DNA from: Desulfobacteraceae bacterium
GTDB lineage: Bacteria; Desulfobacterota; DSM-4660; Desulfatiglandales; Desulfatiglandaceae
Assembly (NCBI GenBank): GCA_030613055.1
Contig: JAUWMR010000041.1
Location: 1 to 37,082 of the forward strand
Length of the DNA: 37,082 bases
Reading direction: 5' to 3'
Shown: piece after piece, positions 22,528 through 35,809 of the stretch
Position numbering within the stretch: the stretch's first letter is position 1
How the letters are laid out: each line of letters opens with the position of its first letter
Notes under the pieces: generated by a model
What the model was told of the DNA's origin: nothing
The model's input: only the letters and a program-made list of their open reading frames with translations
The model's database searches: none
Position numbers and translations under genes: made by a program

Positions 22528-22875
22528 TTATCTTTTTTTTTCTTTCCCACCAAATATGCTCCTGAAGATTCTATTATCTTCCTTGAGACACCTCTCTTTT
22601 AGAATACCGTATTTTTTCAAAAGCGCTTTGCCCTCATGCGTCAGATGGGAGCCGCTCTTTCTGTCTGTATGAACAATCCTTACGTTCAAATAGCTTTCCG
22701 TGACCTTTATTTTGCTCCACACACCCTTGTAGGACATTTTCATTATCTTTGCGGTCTGGTTTATGGATCCCGTTTTTTCAATATTTTCCAGTATCTCCTT
22801 TCTCCCCTCTCCGATGATGATCCGGTTATGCTCGTCAACTATCCATTGCCTTGATCTCAATTTAAACGATCCCAT
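22528..22875 (-). CDS. ModE-type winged-helix regulator without metal-binding domain
   Basis: The 115-residue protein is the N-terminal DNA-binding half of ModE: GRKEILENIEKTGSINQTAKIMKMSYKGVWSKI (about 24-56), then a winged segment with GSHLTHEGKALLKKYG. Full ModE has C-terminal molbindin domains for molybdate; they are absent here, so sensing must happen elsewhere or not at all. The ATG, preceded by GGGGG, overlaps the moeA-PBP fusion gene by 14 bases, implying translational coupling. It may regulate its own operon through the palindrome upstream of moeA (inference). Confidence 0.9.
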   Translation of the reverse strand: MGSFKLRSRQWIVDEHNRIIIGEGRKEILENIEKTGSINQTAKIMKMSYKGVWSKIKVTESYLNVRIVHTDRKSGSHLTHEGKALLKKYGILKERCLKEDNRIFRSIFGGKEKKR

Positions 22876-24817
22876 CTTCGTTACCCCCTGTCTCCTTCCA
22901 TAGATGACCGCTATTCGAGGGATCGTAGCCCCCTAAAGATGTTACACGTTCCTGAAAATGCCGGGACCGGATAGTCTCCAACACCGCCTGGATATTAGGC
23001 TGATCCAATATTTCACTCGGAATAACCAGGTCGTACTGCTCTCTTACCATGGAAATAAAATCCAAATTCAAGGCCTTTGCCGCCGCAAAGATACCCATGC
23101 CGCAATCTGCCGCACCACTCAAGACATCCACTGCCACTGCCATATGCGTGAATTCATCGTGGTCATAGCCTTTGATGGAATCAGGTGAAATTCCTAATTC
23201 ATTCAATTTGAAATCAAAAAGGACCCTGGTCCCGGAACCGGCCTGACGGTTGACAAATGTAATATCACCACCGGCCAGGTCCTGAATGCCCTTAATACCC
23301 TTTGGATTACCTTTTGCCACTATCAGACCCTGGTCCCTTAAAACCAGGTTAAAAATACTGGCTCGCATTCCCTTTAGATACTTAATTATATAGGAAAGAT
23401 TATATTCGCCTGTCTCCGTGTCTAAAAGGTGCGTACCTGCCATGTGACATATTCCTTTTCTAATGGCTATCAACCCGCCAAGACTGCCAACATTACCTGA
23501 TGAAATACGGATATTGTATCCTTTGCGCCTGATTTCATCCGAAAGAATATCTATGTTAATGTCATGACTGCCAATAACCACAACAGTATTTAAAAGATCT
23601 TCCTTGCTTACCAGAAGCTCTGCTTCCAACTCCTCATCCTGTGAGACGCCTTCCGAGAGTGCCGGGATACGCAAAATGCCCTCGGCCCTTGTAAGTGTGG
23701 TTATGGAACCTGCGGCCCTTGCTAAAGGTGTGGCAACGTATTTCGGGCCAACCTTGCCAATATTGACACGCAGGAATTCCTCAATGCCCAGCTTGGACGG
23801 AATATCCCGAGTGGGAAAGACCCTAATGGTCTGGCGGGCAGGGGGCTGATATCCCTGAAGTCTGGAAATCAAAGGTCTTACAAACTGGTCAAATGAAAGC
23901 GTTGAAGAAACAGCATACCCTGGATTGCCTACGACAGGTTTGTCATGAATAATACCCAAAATGGTTGGCTTCCCCGGCATCATAGCAACACCATGGACAA
24001 GGACCTCTCCCAGTTCACTGATGACATGCACAGTATAGTCCTTGCTGCCTGCCGAGGAACCCGCGTTGATTATCACTATATGGGCGTCTGATTCAACGGC
24101 CTCCTTTACAGCCTTGCGGATCATCTCCTCCTGGTCATCTACAATATCATAGACCACCGGGATGCCGCCCGACTCGCGAACTAATGCCGCAAGTACTAAA
24201 GAATTGTACTCAATGATCTGGTTTTCCTTTAGCGTATAACTTTCATCAATTGCGCTGTAGTGTACAAGCTCTGAGCCGGTTGGAATAATAGCCACCCTGG
24301 GCATCGACCAGGCTTTCAGGGAGAAGACTCCGGCACTTATGAGGGCGCCGATATCATATGGCCTAATTCTATGATTTTGCGTAAGGACTAACTGGGTAGC
24401 TACAATATCCTCCCCCACCTTCCGGATATTTTGCCAGGGATAGGCAGAAGATTGAATTTCCAGGTGGTCTTCATCTAACTGATGGATCTTTTCAACCATG
24501 ATCACCGAATCAAATGGTTCACAAATGGGTTGGCCGGTATTGATCCAGACAGCGTCGGTTCCCAACTTAAGTTTCATGGGATATCTTTCAGTCGTTCCAT
24601 AGGTGTCCTCTGCCTTTACAGCGATACCGTCCATGGCTGCTGAATGATAAGAAGGAGCGGATCTCTTTGCAAAAACCGGTTCAGCCGTGATTCGACCCAG
24701 GGCATCCTCGGTTTTTATTACCTCAGGTTTGGTTTGTTTATCAGGGGCGAACCGGGAAAAAAATAATCCCTTTGCCTCTTCAAGAGACTTCATGGAAAGG
24801 TAGACCTTGCGCTTCAT
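22862..24817 (-). CDS. MoeA fused to a periplasmic-binding-protein-like (PBP_like) domain
   Basis: The 651-residue protein has a full MoeA region (about 1-405; SAAMDGIAVKAEDT, IPTGSELVH, NAGSSAGSKDYT, MMPGKPTILG) and a C-terminal LysR-substrate/PBP-type domain (about 410-640; NVGSLGGLIAIRKG, FVNRQAGSGTRVLFD, AADCGMGIFAAA). MoeA inserts molybdenum or tungsten into adenylylated molybdopterin. The extra domain, common in archaea and sulfate reducers, is thought to bind molybdate, tungstate or a related ligand. GGAGG precedes the ATG. It lies 12 bp after the single-domain moeA, so the operon has two MoeA proteins, perhaps for different metals or enzymes (inference). Confidence 0.93.
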   Translation of the reverse strand: MKRKVYLSMKSLEEAKGLFFSRFAPDKQTKPEVIKTEDALGRITAEPVFAKRSAPSYHSAAMDGIAVKAEDTYGTTERYPMKLKLGTDAVWINTGQPICEPFDSVIMVEKIHQLDEDHLEIQSSAYPWQNIRKVGEDIVATQLVLTQNHRIRPYDIGALISAGVFSLKAWSMPRVAIIPTGSELVHYSAIDESYTLKENQIIEYNSLVLAALVRESGGIPVVYDIVDDQEEMIRKAVKEAVESDAHIVIINAGSSAGSKDYTVHVISELGEVLVHGVAMMPGKPTILGIIHDKPVVGNPGYAVSSTLSFDQFVRPLISRLQGYQPPARQTIRVFPTRDIPSKLGIEEFLRVNIGKVGPKYVATPLARAAGSITTLTRAEGILRIPALSEGVSQDEELEAELLVSKEDLLNTVVVIGSHDINIDILSDEIRRKGYNIRISSGNVGSLGGLIAIRKGICHMAGTHLLDTETGEYNLSYIIKYLKGMRASIFNLVLRDQGLIVAKGNPKGIKGIQDLAGGDITFVNRQAGSGTRVLFDFKLNELGISPDSIKGYDHDEFTHMAVAVDVLSGAADCGMGIFAAAKALNLDFISMVREQYDLVIPSEILDQPNIQAVLETIRSRHFQERVTSLGGYDPSNSGHLWKETGGNEDGIV

Positions 24818-26186: not shown

Positions 26187-26531
26187 TCAAATAATGATAC
26201 CAATAGCTCGTTGGATAGCCTTTTCCACCTCTGCCATCTTTGCAGGACTTACGGTTCCGGAAAAAGGCCCACGAATCAGGAAGGACTTGTCGAGGGTGGT
26301 TATCTGTTCACACTTTGCCATGGAAGTTCGGTTAATGCCGGCTTCCCTTTCTGGTAGTTCAACATGGGTAGGGCTGGGACGGAGAGTTGTTGAGATGGGG
26401 ACTACAATGACATCATTAGCTAGGCGATTTCGAACGTCTAAAGAGACGACCAGAGCAGGTCTTGCTTTGGTATCCCCCGGATGCCCGGGAAGTCTTACAA
26501 GAAAAATCTCGCCTCTTTTAGGATACGGCAT
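26187..26531 (-). CDS. MazF/PemK-family endoribonuclease toxin
   Basis: The 114-residue protein has the MazF/PemK pattern: KRGEIFLVRLPG, then GDTKARPALVVS (the conserved RP), DVIVVPIST and HVELP, with a C-terminal helix. MazF toxins are sequence-specific mRNA or tRNA interferases in the cytoplasm. It starts three bases after the antitoxin stop. Its own stop lies 33 bp from the palindrome upstream of moeA. Confidence 0.93.
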   Translation of the reverse strand: MPYPKRGEIFLVRLPGHPGDTKARPALVVSLDVRNRLANDVIVVPISTTLRPSPTHVELPEREAGINRTSMAKCEQITTLDKSFLIRGPFSGTVSPAKMAEVEKAIQRAIGIII

Positions 26532-26534
26532 AGC

Positions 26535-26816
26535 TTATTCCTCCCAAAGTTGTCGGGCAGACTCAGATGTTATCTTGTTCCACTTGCGGTCTTCTTGCCG
26601 TTCCTCATCGGATAATGAAAGATAGTATTCTTCAATCTGGCTTTCAAGCTCCCGCATTTTCTGCTCTTTGTGCCAACGACGCAAGGCCTCTTCGATAAGC
26701 TGGCTGCGGGATCGGGTTTCAGATTTCTTAATGAAAGCATCTATATCTTTTACCAACCCAGCATCAAGACTGGCAGTGACCTTGACCTTTATTGAAGAAG
26801 ATGTTTTTGCATCCAT
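26535..26816 (-). CDS. Ribbon-helix-helix antitoxin partner of MazF
   Basis: The 93-residue protein begins with a ribbon-helix-helix domain (KVKVTASLDAGLVKDIDAFIKK, then SRSQLIEEALRRW, about 9-50) and ends in an acidic helical tail (about 55-93) that would bind the toxin. GGAGG precedes the ATG. It is the first gene of a two-gene operon with MazF. A promoter-like pair and a 15-bp palindrome lie just upstream, fitting autoregulation. Confidence 0.92.
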   Translation of the reverse strand: MDAKTSSSIKVKVTASLDAGLVKDIDAFIKKSETRSRSQLIEEALRRWHKEQKMRELESQIEEYYLSLSDEERQEDRKWNKITSESARQLWEE

Positions 26817-29086: not shown

Positions 29087-29259
29087 AACAGAATTTTAAA
29101 AGTGTTATCATTGACGGCCTGAGAACAGACATCCCAATTTAACTAGATCTACCACTCTTCTATTCACTCTCAATATAAGTATGAAATGTTCGCTGAACCA
29201 TCAAGATATTCCGCAACCACATTTTTCATTTCATCTACAGTTTGGAACAAAGGAGCATT

Positions 29260-30450
29260 ATGTTATTCAGAAAAAAAATAGTAATTGGGTTGTCGATTAT
29301 CGTAATCCTGTTATCAGCTTTTGGTGCATACTTGTATCTTTCAAAAAATGCTGACAAACGTCCCGTCAAAATTGGTGTTGTGTTGCCCCTGTCAGGCGAT
29401 TTTGAAACATATGGGAAGCTTGGAGCTCAGGGTGCGAAAATGGCTGTGGATGAAATCAATAAAACCGGTGGGGTCCTGAATGGGAGGCGCCTGGAGCTGA
29501 TAATCGAAGATAACAAAACAGACCCCAATATTGCGGTCAAACAGATAAGAAAATTAATCCAGGAAGATGATGTTATTGCCGTAATCGGGCCTGTCAGCAG
29601 TGCTGCCCGTGACGCGATGGCCAGGGTTGCCAAACAATTCAAAACACCCCTGCTGTACGGTATCAGTTACGAGGGTAACAGATATGACCGATATTTATTT
29701 TGCTACAGCCCGATTCCTGATCATGTAATCACCCCCCTGATTCCTTTTATGGCGAAAAATTATGGTCCGTCATTCTATATCTTTGGCTATGATTATGTAT
29801 GGCCGCACGAAATGACAGAAGCCATCAAAAGAGAAGTAAAGAAATCCAACTGCAAAATATCGGGGGTTGAATTTACTCCTTTTGGCATAAAGGATTTTTC
29901 TCCCACTCTTAAAAAAATCAGGGAATCCGAAGCTGAAGTTCTCATGCTGATTCTTCCGGGTCCTGACGGGTTCAGGTTTATCCGGCAATTTAATGAATCC
30001 GGTTTGAGAAAACATGTGAAAATTGTGGCAATCGCGTCTGAGGAAACCTATTTGCAAGCCCTGCCGCCTGAAGAACTCGAAGGTATTATAACGAATGTTC
30101 ATTTTTTAAGCAGCCTTGAAAGCAAAGAAGCAAAATCATTTGTTGACCGGCAGAAAAAAATGTTTGGGGATAACACAGTAGTCACTTATTCTACAGAATC
30201 TCACTATGGCCTTATCAAACTTTTACAAAAAGCTATTGAAAAGGCCGGTACTGTTGATAAAGAAAAGATTATTGATGCCATGGAGAATCTGACAATAATA
30301 GTAGGTAATGGTTCGGTGACAATGAGGGAAGATCATCATATGAACCTGAACATGATAATCTCCGAGTTTACTGCCGGCAAACTCATTGCGAAAAAAAACA
30401 TCGGGCTGGTAATCCCTGGAAACCAGAAAAAAATGGACAGTGACAGATGA
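29260..30450 (+). CDS. Periplasmic ligand-binding protein (LivJ/LivK-type, PBP type 1)
   Basis: The ATG at 29260 follows AAGGAG. The 396-residue protein has an N-terminal hydrophobic segment (about 7-25, no lipobox), then the amino-acid/amide-type binding fold: KIGVVLPLSGDFETYGKLGAQGAKMAVDEIN, LIIEDNKTDPNIAV and AVIGPVSSAARDAMA. The ligand may be a branched-chain amino acid, amide or short acid. No permease or ATPase gene is near. Its last four bases, ATGA, contain the start of the sensor kinase, so the two proteins are made together. A role as the ligand-binding partner of that kinase is the simplest reading (inference). Confidence 0.91.
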   Translation: MLFRKKIVIGLSIIVILLSAFGAYLYLSKNADKRPVKIGVVLPLSGDFETYGKLGAQGAKMAVDEINKTGGVLNGRRLELIIEDNKTDPNIAVKQIRKLIQEDDVIAVIGPVSSAARDAMARVAKQFKTPLLYGISYEGNRYDRYLFCYSPIPDHVITPLIPFMAKNYGPSFYIFGYDYVWPHEMTEAIKREVKKSNCKISGVEFTPFGIKDFSPTLKKIRESEAEVLMLILPGPDGFRFIRQFNESGLRKHVKIVAIASEETYLQALPPEELEGIITNVHFLSSLESKEAKSFVDRQKKMFGDNTVVTYSTESHYGLIKLLQKAIEKAGTVDKEKIIDAMENLTIIVGNGSVTMREDHHMNLNMIISEFTAGKLIAKKNIGLVIPGNQKKMDSDR

Positions 30451-33365
30451 GTTTACGCGCCAAAATTCTTTTGTGGTTAATGCCTGTATTGTTGCCAATG
30501 CTACTCATCATCTATCTAAATTATACCGCCCAGAGAGATGCCGCTGAAAAGCAGTTAATAAGTATGTGTTCGATTGTAATTGAACATGGCGCCAGGGATC
30601 TGAACGATTATATCCTGTTGAAAGATACAACTTATCGGCTCTTGGCTGAGTGGCTTGTCAAAAGCTCGATTGATCCGAATAATGTCACAACAGAGCAGGA
30701 GAGCGAAATTGGAAGGCAGATGAGAATTCATCCCGGCTTTTCCATGATGCTCTTCACGGACAAGGAAGGCAGGGTACTATTTGGCAAGGTTGGTCTAAGC
30801 CGAAGTGATATCCCGTTTTTACCACGCAATATTACCGGGAAAATTGCATTTGATGAAAATGAACAAAAATATCTAACTGATGTATACCAAAAGTGGAAAA
30901 CATCAGTTGTCAAATACCGGAACCAAATAGTTGACACCGATAAGCTGATATATATGCTTAGCGCATCCGGTGAAAAAAATTCCTTCCGCTACAGGCAGGC
31001 ACAGCAAAGATTAGTTGCTCTGAAGGCAGGCATAAAACAACCCCCGCATACTGTTTTTATTGGCGGAAAAGAACTGACTGACAAAGCTGGTTTACCTTTT
31101 CGCTCTAATACATTTATATTTGCCATCCCTACTGAAACAGATGAGGGAAAGCTTTCCGGATTTATCTTGGGGATATCGGACTGGACTCTTGTTGAAAACA
31201 AAATTTATTCGCTTAAATCAGATTTAAAGGCCAGTGGAATACCTGGAGCGGACATCGTTCTGTTTGATATGTCGTCAAGTGAATTTCTCATTAAGTCAAA
31301 GCATATATCGGCAAACTGTATTAGAGATGCTGCGAGACCGGAGGCCTTGCGGGATAACACGGATAGTTTTGTGAGCTATGTGGAGTCTATCAATGCACAA
31401 ATGGTTTTTGCTGCCGTCGTTGACACTAAAGTGCTCACTCTGATTAATGATACCAGCTATCTGCTTTCAAGGAATGATAGCTATGATAATGATTTGAAAA
31501 ATATCTTGAATAAATCTGATTTCTATTTGATTGGATACGTGCCGGTAGCGGACATTTCTTTTCATGCGGAGAGATTGCTATGGAGATCAGTTCTTTTTAC
31601 CCTCATAAGTATTTTTCTGCTTGTAGGTATTATTTTATTGCTAAGCGGAAGGATTGTTCGGCCCATCGCAAAAATGGCGGCTATGACAAAGCGAATTTCT
31701 GAGGGTGATTTAAGTTACCGTATTGCTGATACCAGGAACGATGAAATAGGAAGGTTAGCTTTTTCTTTTAATCAAATGAGCAAAGATCTTCTGAAAAAGC
31801 AAACAGAGTTGGAAATAAAGAACAAAGAGCTACAAACCAGCGAAAAGCGTTACCAAGACCTCTTTGACAACGCTCCGATCGCTATTGCCTTGATTACCAA
31901 GGATGGCCGGATTAAGGATGTGAACAAGAAGATTTTTGACATTGCAGGATACAAAAGAGAAGATGTGCAGGGAAAAAATGTCAGTGAACTATATCAGGAC
32001 CCTGTTGATCTGGAAAAAGTCATACAGGAAATACAAAGGCATGGAGATGTCAAGGGTATGGAGCTCAACCTTAAGCGTAAGGACGGCGCACCATTTATCG
32101 GCCGCTTTACCAGTGTTCCTGTTACCCTAAACGAGGAACCGTTGATGCTCGCTATGGTTGAAGACATCACCAAACAAAAAGAGGCAGAGCGTGAAAGGGA
32201 GGCTGTGGCCCTCAAATTACAGCGGTCTCAGAAGATGGAAGCCATCGGCATGATGGCAGGCGGTGTGGCCCATGACCTGAACAATATCTTGTCAGGAATT
32301 GTCAGTTATCCGGAGCTGATGCTGCTCGATCTGCCGGAAGACAGCCCCCTGCGAAAGCCGGTAGAGACTATTCAGGCGTCAGGCAAACGGGCTGCAGATG
32401 TAGTGGCCGACCTGTTAACCGTGGCCCGAGGCGCAGCTGCTGTCAGAGAAGTACACAATCTGAACAAACTGGTTTCAGATTACCTGCATTCTCCTGAAAT
32501 AAGACGGCTTACGACTAATCAGCCGGATGTAACGCTTATTACCGATTTTGCCGCTGATCTTTTCAACCTGAGCTGTTCACCGATTCATATCCGGAAATGT
32601 TTACTCAATCTTGTTATTAACGGTTATGAAGCGGTTGATAAATTCGGTTCGGTTACCGTATCCACTGCCAACCGGTATATTGATAAGCCTCTCAAGGGAT
32701 ATGATGATGTGCATAGGGGTGAATACGTGGTTCTTTCAGTTATTGATGATGGACCTGGCATTACGCCCAATGATTTGGAACGGATCTTTGAGCCGTTTTA
32801 TACCAAAAAAGTGATGGGGAGAAGTGGTACCGGTCTCGGCCTCGCCGTGGTTTGGAACACAGTGCAGGACCATGACGGTTATATCGACGTAATCACCGGA
32901 GTCAAAGGTACCCGTTTTGATCTGTACTTTCCAGCCAGTCGTGAAATGGCAGATGTTGAGAAAGAAGATATGGTCTTGGCTGACCTGCAGGGTAACAGCG
33001 AGACTATCCTGGTGATCGACGACGAGCCGGATCAGCGCAGAATTGCCTGCAGCCTGCTGAGCAGACTTGGTTACCAGCCCAATGCTGTTGCCAGTGGTGA
33101 GGAGGCTGTTGTCTATCTCAAAAAACATGCAGTTGACCTGCTACTCCTGGATATGATTATGGACCCGGGCATGAACGGCAGAGAAACCTATGAGCAGATT
33201 GTTGCATTGCATCCCGGCCAGAAGGCAGTGATCGCCAGTGGTTTTACCGAGACAGATGATGTAAAAAAAGCTCAGGAGCTGGGCGCCGGATTATTTATCA
33301 AAAAGCCATATACCCTCGACCGGCTTGGCCAGGCAGTTAAAATGGAGTTGGAAAAGCAGATATAG
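30447..33365 (+). CDS. HAMP-PAS hybrid sensor histidine kinase
   Basis: The 972-residue protein has a first membrane helix (about 7-25), a large periplasmic region (about 28-375), a second helix (about 377-401), HAMP (about 402-455), PAS (about 465-580), a HisKA of the AHDLNN type (phospho-His 609), HATPase_c (about 700-830; DDGPGI, GRSGTGLGLAVV) and a C-terminal receiver (about 850-970, Asp 902). The start overlaps the binding-protein stop (ATGA). The periplasmic region presumably reads the ligand-bound state of that protein, as LuxQ does with LuxP or TorS with TorT. No HPt or DNA-binding output is adjacent, so the downstream partner is unknown. Confidence 0.93.
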   Translation: MSLRAKILLWLMPVLLPMLLIIYLNYTAQRDAAEKQLISMCSIVIEHGARDLNDYILLKDTTYRLLAEWLVKSSIDPNNVTTEQESEIGRQMRIHPGFSMMLFTDKEGRVLFGKVGLSRSDIPFLPRNITGKIAFDENEQKYLTDVYQKWKTSVVKYRNQIVDTDKLIYMLSASGEKNSFRYRQAQQRLVALKAGIKQPPHTVFIGGKELTDKAGLPFRSNTFIFAIPTETDEGKLSGFILGISDWTLVENKIYSLKSDLKASGIPGADIVLFDMSSSEFLIKSKHISANCIRDAARPEALRDNTDSFVSYVESINAQMVFAAVVDTKVLTLINDTSYLLSRNDSYDNDLKNILNKSDFYLIGYVPVADISFHAERLLWRSVLFTLISIFLLVGIILLLSGRIVRPIAKMAAMTKRISEGDLSYRIADTRNDEIGRLAFSFNQMSKDLLKKQTELEIKNKELQTSEKRYQDLFDNAPIAIALITKDGRIKDVNKKIFDIAGYKREDVQGKNVSELYQDPVDLEKVIQEIQRHGDVKGMELNLKRKDGAPFIGRFTSVPVTLNEEPLMLAMVEDITKQKEAEREREAVALKLQRSQKMEAIGMMAGGVAHDLNNILSGIVSYPELMLLDLPEDSPLRKPVETIQASGKRAADVVADLLTVARGAAAVREVHNLNKLVSDYLHSPEIRRLTTNQPDVTLITDFAADLFNLSCSPIHIRKCLLNLVINGYEAVDKFGSVTVSTANRYIDKPLKGYDDVHRGEYVVLSVIDDGPGITPNDLERIFEPFYTKKVMGRSGTGLGLAVVWNTVQDHDGYIDVITGVKGTRFDLYFPASREMADVEKEDMVLADLQGNSETILVIDDEPDQRRIACSLLSRLGYQPNAVASGEEAVVYLKKHAVDLLLLDMIMDPGMNGRETYEQIVALHPGQKAVIASGFTETDDVKKAQELGAGLFIKKPYTLDRLGQAVKMELEKQI

Positions 33366-33407
33366 TGAAGAGGAGCGGCCATAACTTTATAAGAATATCT
33401 ATCATGA

Positions 33408-33563
33408 ATCATTGACACACATGCATTCCAGGCCGGACATCCGCCCCGCTATCATAGAGACCCATTCGACCGGATGCTGATAGCCCAGGCGCAAGTGGAA
33501 TCATTGGTGCTGCTTTCCAATGATCAAAAGCTGGGGCTATACGATGTAAATATACGGTGGTGA
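33408..33563 (+). pseudogene. 3' remnant of a PIN-domain (VapC-like) toxin
   Basis: In one frame the sequence reads AGHPPRYHRDPFDRMLIAQA, then LVLLSNDQKLGLYDVNIRW and a stop at 33561-33563. HRDPFDRMLIAQA with a following S/T-x-D is the C-terminal hallmark of the PIN toxin family. A stop (TGA) lies just upstream at 33405-33407 in that frame, and no start or N-terminal Asp region is present. The rest of the gene and its antitoxin are missing. It begins about 40 bp after the sensor kinase stop and ends 37 bp before the first 113-bp repeat. Confidence 0.85.
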
Positions 33564-33927: not shown

Positions 33928-34959
33928 ATGAGAACCAGAAACGCAGAAAAAGAAACTCTACGCATAGCACTGGAAAAGCTCGAAAAGACGATTGAGCTAA
34001 CCGCTGAAGTGTACCCTGAGGTTGATCCAGAGGGTCCGGACGCAGTGATTCGAATCATTTGGCAAGATATGGAGTGGCATTTTGCAGCTGAGGTTAAATA
34101 CACGCTCACACGCGCAATGACCGGTGCAGTTGTTCAACAACTACGAAGGCACTTTAAAAAAGGCATTATTATTGCAAAATATGTAACCCCGCAGGTAGCT
34201 GAACTTTTAAAAGAATTAGATGCTCCATTCCTCGACGCAGCTGGCAACGCATACCTAAATGAGCCCCCCCTATTTGTTTTCATCAAAGGCAACAAGCCGA
34301 CTGAGATGTATACCGAGAAGCCTCCAATCCGTGCTTTCCGTCCTGCAGGACTACAGGTTGTCTTTGCCCTTCTATGTAATCCGGGCCTGGAAAAGGCCCA
34401 ATATCGTGAAATCGCCAAAGCTGCAGATGTCGCCTTAGGCACTGTAGGTTGGATTATGCGGGATTTGAGACAGACTGGAAATCTGGTTGAAATGGGGAAA
34501 CGCGGTCGGCGTCTGATTCAAAAGGAGAAACTGTTGGCACGATGGGCAACGGCGTATCCTGAGCAGTTAAAGCCCAAGAAGTTAATAGGGACCTTCAGAG
34601 CCGCCAATACAGATTGGTGGAAGGATGCTGAGCTTCCCGGCCCGGAAACGTATTGGGGTGGAGAAATCGCAGCAGCCAAGCTCACACAACACTTGCAGCC
34701 ACAGACAGCGACAATCTACACGCATGAACTCAAGGTGCTCCTTAAATGGCTAATAAGAAATAGAATAAGACAAGACCCGGATGGAAATATTGAGATCATG
34801 AGGAAGTTCTGGAAATTCGAACCTGATTGGGAATACCCCAACTTGACTCATCCCGTCCTAACATACGCGGATTTGCTCGCTACAGCTGATGATAGGAACA
34901 TTGAAACAGCAGGTATCATCTATGACAAAGCAATTGCTCGACTTATCAGGGAAGATTGA
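33928..34959 (+). CDS. AbiEi-type antitoxin/regulator with nuclease-like N-terminal domain
   Basis: The 343-residue protein resembles the AbiEi_2/COG4861 family named as type IV antitoxin. The N-terminal region (about 20-125) has the family segments IIAKYVTPQVAELLKEL and FLDAAGNAYLN, plus an acidic run (D38, D47) leading to E55-V-K57, reminiscent of a PD-(D/E)xK nuclease core. The middle (about 155-200) is a winged helix: YREIAKAADVALGTVGWIMRDL. The C-terminal 130 residues are family-specific. The 3' end overlaps the toxin gene by 38 bases, and the operon sits between two 113-bp direct repeats. The start ATG has only a weak ribosome site. Antitoxin activity is inferred from the family. Confidence 0.82.
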   Translation: MRTRNAEKETLRIALEKLEKTIELTAEVYPEVDPEGPDAVIRIIWQDMEWHFAAEVKYTLTRAMTGAVVQQLRRHFKKGIIIAKYVTPQVAELLKELDAPFLDAAGNAYLNEPPLFVFIKGNKPTEMYTEKPPIRAFRPAGLQVVFALLCNPGLEKAQYREIAKAADVALGTVGWIMRDLRQTGNLVEMGKRGRRLIQKEKLLARWATAYPEQLKPKKLIGTFRAANTDWWKDAELPGPETYWGGEIAAAKLTQHLQPQTATIYTHELKVLLKWLIRNRIRQDPDGNIEIMRKFWKFEPDWEYPNLTHPVLTYADLLATADDRNIETAGIIYDKAIARLIRED

Positions 34960-35809
34960 GGGATTGACCGTTGAGCTTTTTGACACCATAGCAAAGGTAG
35001 CTGAATCTGTAAGCGCTCCTTTCTTTGTCGTCGGTGCGACAGCACGGGACATAATACTCAAATACGGTTACGACATCGAGACAACCCGAGCGACTAATGA
35101 CATAGATTTGGGCGTGAAAGTATCTGATTGGGATCAGTATATCAAGCTAAGAGAAGGCCTGATTGTGACAGGAAGATTCGAATCTACCAAGGAGGTTCAA
35201 AGGCTGAAATATTTGGGAAGTCTATTTATCGATGTAATCCCTTTTGGCGCAATTGCAGATCCAGGTGGATCGTTCTCCTGGCCTCCGGATCACGAAGTCG
35301 AAATGAACACCTTAGGATTCGACGAATCATACCAACATTCGTTGACTGTAAGACTGAAGAGAAACCCGGATCTCGACATCAAATTCGCAAACCAGGTCGG
35401 CTTGGCTCTAATGAAACTAATTTCCTGGGACGACAGGTATCCTGAAAGGAACAAGGACGCCAAGGACTTAGGGTTTCTGATGCGCAGGCACATTGATGCG
35501 GGCAACGAGGAACGACTCTTTGAAGAAGAAGCGGATTTGATCGATATTCTTGCGGAAAGTGGAGGTTTCGACTACCTGAGGGCCAGCGCGAGATTGCTTG
35601 GCCGGGATATTTCGGCGATTGCAAATCATGAGACAAGGAAAAGGCTCCTGAAGATATTGGAAAGTGAGACTGGCGAGAGAGACCGCTACAGGCTTGTCGA
35701 GAATATGATAGACATTTCCGCGGGAGCCAGCTCAGATTTTGAAGAGAATCTGGTCCTGCTCGAAGAGCTTAAGGCCGGCATTCTCGAAGGGCCAAGAATT
35801 GCTCGATAA
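34922..35809 (+). CDS. AbiEii-like nucleotidyltransferase toxin
   Basis: The 295-residue protein is a DNA-polymerase-beta-type nucleotidyltransferase: FFVVGATARDI (G38, D43), NDIDLG (D60, D62) and IDVIPFG (D104), with the AbiEii-type K165 and RNKDAKDL (176-183). AbiEii toxins use NTPs to modify tRNA or other targets and cause growth arrest and phage abortive infection. The ATG at 34922 is preceded by AGGT and overlaps the antitoxin gene by 38 bases; an earlier in-frame start at 34889 would overlap more. All catalytic residues appear intact. Whether this pair blocks phage is not shown by sequence. Confidence 0.85.
   Translation: MTKQLLDLSGKIEGLTVELFDTIAKVAESVSAPFFVVGATARDIILKYGYDIETTRATNDIDLGVKVSDWDQYIKLREGLIVTGRFESTKEVQRLKYLGSLFIDVIPFGAIADPGGSFSWPPDHEVEMNTLGFDESYQHSLTVRLKRNPDLDIKFANQVGLALMKLISWDDRYPERNKDAKDLGFLMRRHIDAGNEERLFEEEADLIDILAESGGFDYLRASARLLGRDISAIANHETRKRLLKILESETGERDRYRLVENMIDISAGASSDFEENLVLLEELKAGILEGPRIAR

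Follow-up and report, generated by a model that had tools for sequence, protein, structure and literature searches.

What does a solute-binding protein (SBP) do when its gene adjoins that of a sensor kinase? This question is raised by a gene pair from a Desulfobacteraceae bacterium, and we examined the whole stretch of DNA that carries it, i.e., the whole of contig C56 (37,082 bases), from a draft genome of 4.26 Mb (hereafter, the window). The first-pass annotation had described a binding protein coupled by a four-base overlap to a hybrid kinase, and the overlap (ATGA) was indeed found at 30447-30450. The pair and its immediate signals are arranged as follows:

29215..33369, + strand: two-gene cassette, the stretch homologous to locus L033 (blastn; homology ends at both borders)
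29250..29255, + strand: AAGGAG ribosome-binding site of the SBP gene (sequence; AAGGAG also precedes the L033 SBP start)
29260..30450, + strand: SBP gene (solute-binding protein, Peripla_BP_6, UrtA/AmiC-like, 396 aa; ORF, Pfam and fold matches)
29278..29334, + strand: hydrophobic N-terminal segment of the SBP, residues 7-25 (hydropathy; candidate signal peptide or membrane anchor)
30447..30450, + strand: ATGA stop/start overlap, SBP TGA and kinase ATG (sequence)
30447..33365, + strand: hybrid sensor histidine kinase gene, 972 aa (ORF and Pfam)

A terminator scan showed nothing above chance, and a promoter scan found slightly more promoter-like sites than the chance level (18 vs. 12.9). We consider it likely that the pair encodes a two-subunit receptor, in which the SBP would be the ligand-capturing subunit of the kinase and dedicated to signalling.

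The kinase had been predicted to be a hybrid enzyme with a periplasmic domain of about 350 residues. Its hydrophobic segments at residues 7-25 and 381-399 enclose a periplasmic part of about that length, and the Pfam domains, REC included, agree with the prediction:

30465..30521, + strand: first transmembrane segment, residues 7-25 (hydropathy)
30537..31586, + strand: periplasmic sensor domain, about residues 31-380, probably a divergent double Cache (family alignment; sub-threshold dCache_1 in relatives)
30984..31106, + strand: 41-residue insertion, residues 180-220, missing in chemoreceptor-type relatives (alignment)
31587..31643, + strand: second transmembrane segment, residues 381-399 (hydropathy)
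31638..31790, + strand: HAMP, residues 398-448 (Pfam)
31848..32177, + strand: cytoplasmic PAS, residues 468-577 (Pfam)
32250..32432, + strand: HisKA, residues 602-662, phospho-acceptor His609 (codon 32271-32273; Pfam and alignment)
32580..32939, + strand: HATPase_c, residues 712-831 (Pfam)
33006..33338, + strand: receiver (REC), residues 854-964, phospho-acceptor Asp902 (codon 33150-33152; Pfam and alignment)

His609, the ATP-site motifs and Asp902 are invariant across three orthologues. Synonymous divergence from the L033 copy is high (dS 0.89) in the PAS stretch at 31812-32201 (residues 456-585) and about 0.3-0.4 in its surroundings, which suggests domain replacement or recombination.

A search of other genomes, as the first-pass annotation had advised, recovered the pair in L033, in L032 (3' part of the SBP gene) and in G315. 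The full-length close orthologues of the kinase occur in the MAGs L032 and L033 (82% identity). Blastn aligned the window with L033:4771-8923 at 87.5% identity over 4156 bases, from 45 bp 5' of the SBP gene to 4 bp 3' of the kinase gene, between unrelated flanks. The ATGA overlap itself is variable, since it is present in the window, in L032 (whose contig starts within the final part of the SBP gene) and in G315, while L033, with an SBP 91% identical to ours, instead has a 10-bp gap upstream of the kinase. G315, from another family of the same phylum, holds a diverged SBP and hybrid kinase pair (SBP 57% and sensor domain 32% identical to those of the window). Measured against the L033 copy, dN/dS was 0.12 for the SBP and 0.22 for the kinase; purifying selection acts on both genes. 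Since the window and L033 share two genes and little else, a joint function is supported, short of proof, and the sequences make it probable that SBP and kinase are one inherited and functional unit. Such an SBP would most likely be a detachable ligand detector, not part of a pump. The two-subunit receptor is thus favoured by the cassette borders and the diverged G315 pair with its ATGA overlap, as it is by purifying selection and by the unchanged catalytic motifs and receiver Asp.

The surroundings of the pair differ among its carriers. In the window it is flanked by a divergent CoA-ligase gene on one side and by an AbiE-type pair on the other. In L033 and L032 it precedes galE, near nucleotide-sugar and polysaccharide genes (names assigned by eye), and galE overlaps the kinase by 4 bases in L033. 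A link to exopolysaccharide was considered and set aside, since this context is missing in the window, whose genome has no match to the L033/L032-type galE at E<=1e-30, and the G315 neighbours differ. Other genes in the window include a short frame just 3' of the kinase (33462-33563) that, by eye, resembles the C-terminus of a PIN-domain toxin and is probably a remnant, the downstream AbiEi/AbiEii-type toxin-antitoxin pair (33928-35809; PF09952 E 4.7e-41, PF08843 E 7.3e-5), a MazF/PemK-type toxin with a ribbon-helix-helix partner (26187-26816; Pfam), and a MoeA fused to a PBP-like domain (22862-24817), which a second MoeA and a MobB gene adjoin. Searches for the periplasmic domain found it in no genome but its own among 99 relatives, and likewise among 85 genomes of the order; it turned up in 3 genomes out of 145 related to that of L033, in 3 out of 395 from the phylum and in 10 out of 291 related to G223. 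The sets are partly overlapping and were searched with different queries. The SBP-kinase pair is an accessory trait.

Transporter genes had been reported absent nearby, and this proved correct: none of the genome's 28 matches to the HAAT-type permease family PF02653 falls on C56, and no ABC ATPase occurs among the window ORFs scanned with Pfam or read by eye. The absence of a permease from the contig supports the two-subunit receptor. The genome does hold 23 Peripla_BP_6 matches along with those permeases, which an orphan SBP could serve; the SBP might then be co-transcribed with the kinase while feeding a transporter encoded elsewhere, and the kinase would sense its ligand directly through its Cache-like domain. 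Against such an orphan stands the shared cassette, which consists of exactly two genes and no permeases. Alternatively, the SBP could present its solute to both kinase and transporter, coupling uptake with signalling, and SBPs that serve both are described (PMC11113362). However, the contig is without a permease, and the closest SBP paralogue, which has transporter genes of its own (C84), shares just 26% identity with that of the window, so we regard a dual role as very unlikely. Elsewhere in the genome, L024 1108-6579 (C30) is a second SBP-receptor group, in which an SBP with an N-terminal hydrophobic segment is followed by a HAMP protein (weak dCache match, no kinase domain) and then by a dCache histidine kinase, and in L022 3096-5525 (C43) an SBP adjoins a zinc-ribbon and HAMP protein with no recognised output domain.

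Which kind of SBP is this? Pfam matches were to PF13458 (E 6.3e-79), PF13433 and PF01094, and PF13407 was not matched at E<=0.01. The LuxP branch is of the Peripla_BP_4 type. The predicted structure (mean pLDDT 79) matched UrtA/AmiC-type folds; its closest solved structures were UrtA urea-binding proteins, 8tg1 (a periplasmic urea-binding protein) and AmiC (Foldseek: 7s6e, E 3.3e-33; AmiC 1qo0, E 2.9e-26), with VIA Z 38.5-40 over about 350 residues against the UrtA/AmiC structures. These matches place the SBP in the UrtA/AmiC branch of Peripla_BP_6 rather than in that of LuxP; its earlier description as LivK-type stands at the level of the superfamily, the nearer group being UrtA/AmiC. Against the UrtA model TIGR03407 it scored 203 bits, where the cut-off is 493, and a score so far under the cut-off leaves urea unsupported as the ligand. 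Kinship with UrtA and AmiC would point to a small polar molecule as the class of ligand. In the predicted structure, residues 2-29 form an unbroken N-terminal helix, and the N-terminus has no lipobox cysteine.

The sensor domain was found in 15 genomes, five with the window type (G000, G099, G100, G315 and G223) and ten with what we call the chemoreceptor type (G270, G630, G638, G674, G689, G756, G759, G132, G813 and G821). Profile comparison of the two types gave E 1.2e-23 over 271 columns, by which they are homologous. In profile searches the distant homologues aligned over two stretches of the sensor-domain model (residues 1-86 and 190-352), with most of the middle missing, and the main difference from them is the 41-residue insertion of the window type. 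The output is an MCP domain in 7 of the 15 (G756, G821, G759, G638, G674, G689 and G270; Pfam) and a hybrid kinase in the other 8, where G813 has sensor and kinase in two overlapping frames and the outputs of L032 and L033 were taken from their 82% identity to the window kinase rather than from a Pfam scan. No family member reached the dCache_1 (PF02743) cut-off of 45 bits. Sub-threshold dCache_1 matches were obtained for 4 of 12 scanned domains (L033, L139, L145 and L146; E 4.5e-5 to 0.017), three of them spanning most of the profile; the window copy was unmatched. No match came from profile comparison against three dCache domains encoded in the window's own genome; when the sensor-domain alignment was searched against the sequences of solved structures, only chance-like matches resulted (E >= 0.16; none for L145), and structure prediction from three close sequences failed (pLDDT 35). 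Taken together, the domain is probably a divergent double Cache. The open-licence literature yielded no account of this sensor-domain family or of the SBP-kinase pair.

An SBP gene is found near the sensor-domain gene at 14 of the 15 loci, and at 13 it is of the Peripla_BP_6 type, lying directly upstream at 12 loci (the G099 contig holds no more than its 3' end, as read by eye) and ~3.4 kb downstream in G630; in G270 an SBP_bac_5 gene lies upstream. This linkage across both chemoreceptor and kinase outputs favours the two-subunit receptor and speaks against direct sensing by the kinase, although all 15 loci share descent and thus represent few independent events. Eight upstream SBPs of the chemoreceptor type are 64-92% identical to that of G756 and so mark one inherited lineage, not eight events; within that lineage, the output module varies while the SBP gene persists. 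A mirror-tree comparison gave a correlation (r 0.87; 45 pairs, 10 genomes) that shared descent alone would produce and that was not counted as proof, and the SBP tree joined the window-type and chemoreceptor-type SBPs without firm support (0.387). The exception is G223, whose sensor domain carries the 41-residue insertion and has no neighbouring SBP, the genome holding no orthologous SBP (best match 100 bits, on another contig). This counts against the two-subunit receptor and for direct sensing, as does the precedent of AgtS and AruS of P. aeruginosa, with which SBPs encoded nearby showed no interaction (PMC11113362, in part). Of 11 SBP-activated kinases that have been characterised, the same source (citing Matilla 2021) places 10 next to the gene of their SBP, which favours the two-subunit receptor; gene adjacency is a good but imperfect predictor of function. 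On balance, we judge direct sensing beside an orphan SBP to be improbable.

Kinases related to that of the window also adjoin SBPs. A search with the whole kinase retrieved 79 loci, which come from the best 80 matches and are not a random sample; 77 are non-orthologous and share mainly the cytoplasmic core, and 64 remained once 13 too close to a contig edge were set aside. An SBP gene lies immediately upstream of the kinase in at least 15 of these 64, a lower bound since 6 of the 25 listed upstream genes were unscanned. The SBPs were Peripla_BP_6 at six loci (L041, L042, L060, L106, L107 and L110), ABC_sub_bind at five (L035, L037, L038, L044 and L073), and NMT1 (L039), Phosphonate-bd (L048), SBP_bac_11 (L078) and SBP_bac_3 (L083) at one each. 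L106, whose called start leaves a gap of 284 bp, was included manually, and the called frames overlap by 16 to 249 bases in L041, L042, L060, L078 and L110. The SBP tree sets those of L042/L060/L110 and those of L106/L107 apart from that of the window and from each other. A FIST-domain protein precedes three related kinases (L075 4171-7152, by Pfam; L105 and L108, by similar N-termini).

How might the two-subunit receptor work? In the periplasm the SBP would capture a small solute, and either its open or its closed form would dock on the kinase's Cache-like periplasmic domain; the role of the SBP would be signalling, not transport. Docking would alter the geometry of the dimer, and the signal would reach His609 by way of HAMP and the cytoplasmic PAS. 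From His609 the phosphoryl group would flow to Asp902 of the fused receiver and on to two partners encoded elsewhere, an HPt protein and a response regulator. We infer the docking, the direction of regulation and the phosphorelay partners. The genome has 87 HATPase and six Hpt matches, three of the latter in short open frames of 110-140 aa on C47 and C25. Tentatively, and with slightly more doubt than confidence, we suggest that the Cache-like family is a dedicated SBP reader that docks a Peripla_BP_6 subunit and has moved with the SBP gene between chemoreceptors and hybrid kinases, and that the window-type SBP may remain anchored in the membrane through its N-terminal helix, forming a stable two-subunit receptor. 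To our knowledge, the ligands of most sensor kinases are not known. Should the SBP prove to be the subunit that binds the ligand, a ligand search could turn to a soluble protein that is easy to purify and has a well-studied fold, and the SBP linkage of sensor family and kinase core would let gene order predict SBP-reading receptors in Desulfobacterota.

SBP-dependent sensor kinases are a known kind, and here, as in that kind generally, an SBP gene adjoins that of a transmembrane kinase in a conserved arrangement. luxP and luxQ are likewise adjacent, LuxQ has a fused receiver, and its phosphorelay runs through LuxU and LuxO. The layout had been called LuxP/LuxQ-like, and the likeness holds for an inherited two-gene unit without transporter genes, in which an SBP would be read by a membrane kinase; kinship is not supported. 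LuxQ has a periplasmic double-PDC (Cache) domain (PMC8534201, in part), as the window kinase probably does, but the window SBP is of the UrtA/AmiC type, there is no AI-2 link, and the kinase falls far under the cut-off of the NCBI LuxQ model (NF041947, 86 of 1200 bits, over residues 454-964 only, the common kinase core), so that it was rejected as a LuxQ. On the SBP Pfam families and this score we rejected homology with LuxP/LuxQ, and with a UrtA/AmiC-like SBP and a probable divergent double Cache the comparison is one of analogy. AmiC acts in the cytoplasm. Its partner is AmiR (title of 1qo0), unlike the kinase pairing of the window SBP. HptA/HptS and CuaD/CuaS-CuaR resemble the window pair as SBP-based three-component systems with an SBP dedicated to a sensor kinase; HptS has a double-PDC domain (PMC8534201) and CuaD binds CuaS (PMC10384115). 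cuaSR includes an adjacent response regulator gene, whereas the window kinase has its receiver fused and no adjoining regulator gene. TorT/TorS also joins an SBP to a sensor kinase, but the TorS sensor domain is all-helical, unlike that of the window (PMC8534201, in part). The G756-type pairs of Peripla_BP_6 protein and chemoreceptor share the homologous sensor domain and the upstream SBP gene, and differ in their MCP output, in lacking the 41-residue insertion and in SBPs only 19-21% identical to that of the window. Two things are less expected beside these known systems: the SBP gene keeps to the sensor domain even as the output module is exchanged, and the SBPs that adjoin related kinases come from six Pfam families.
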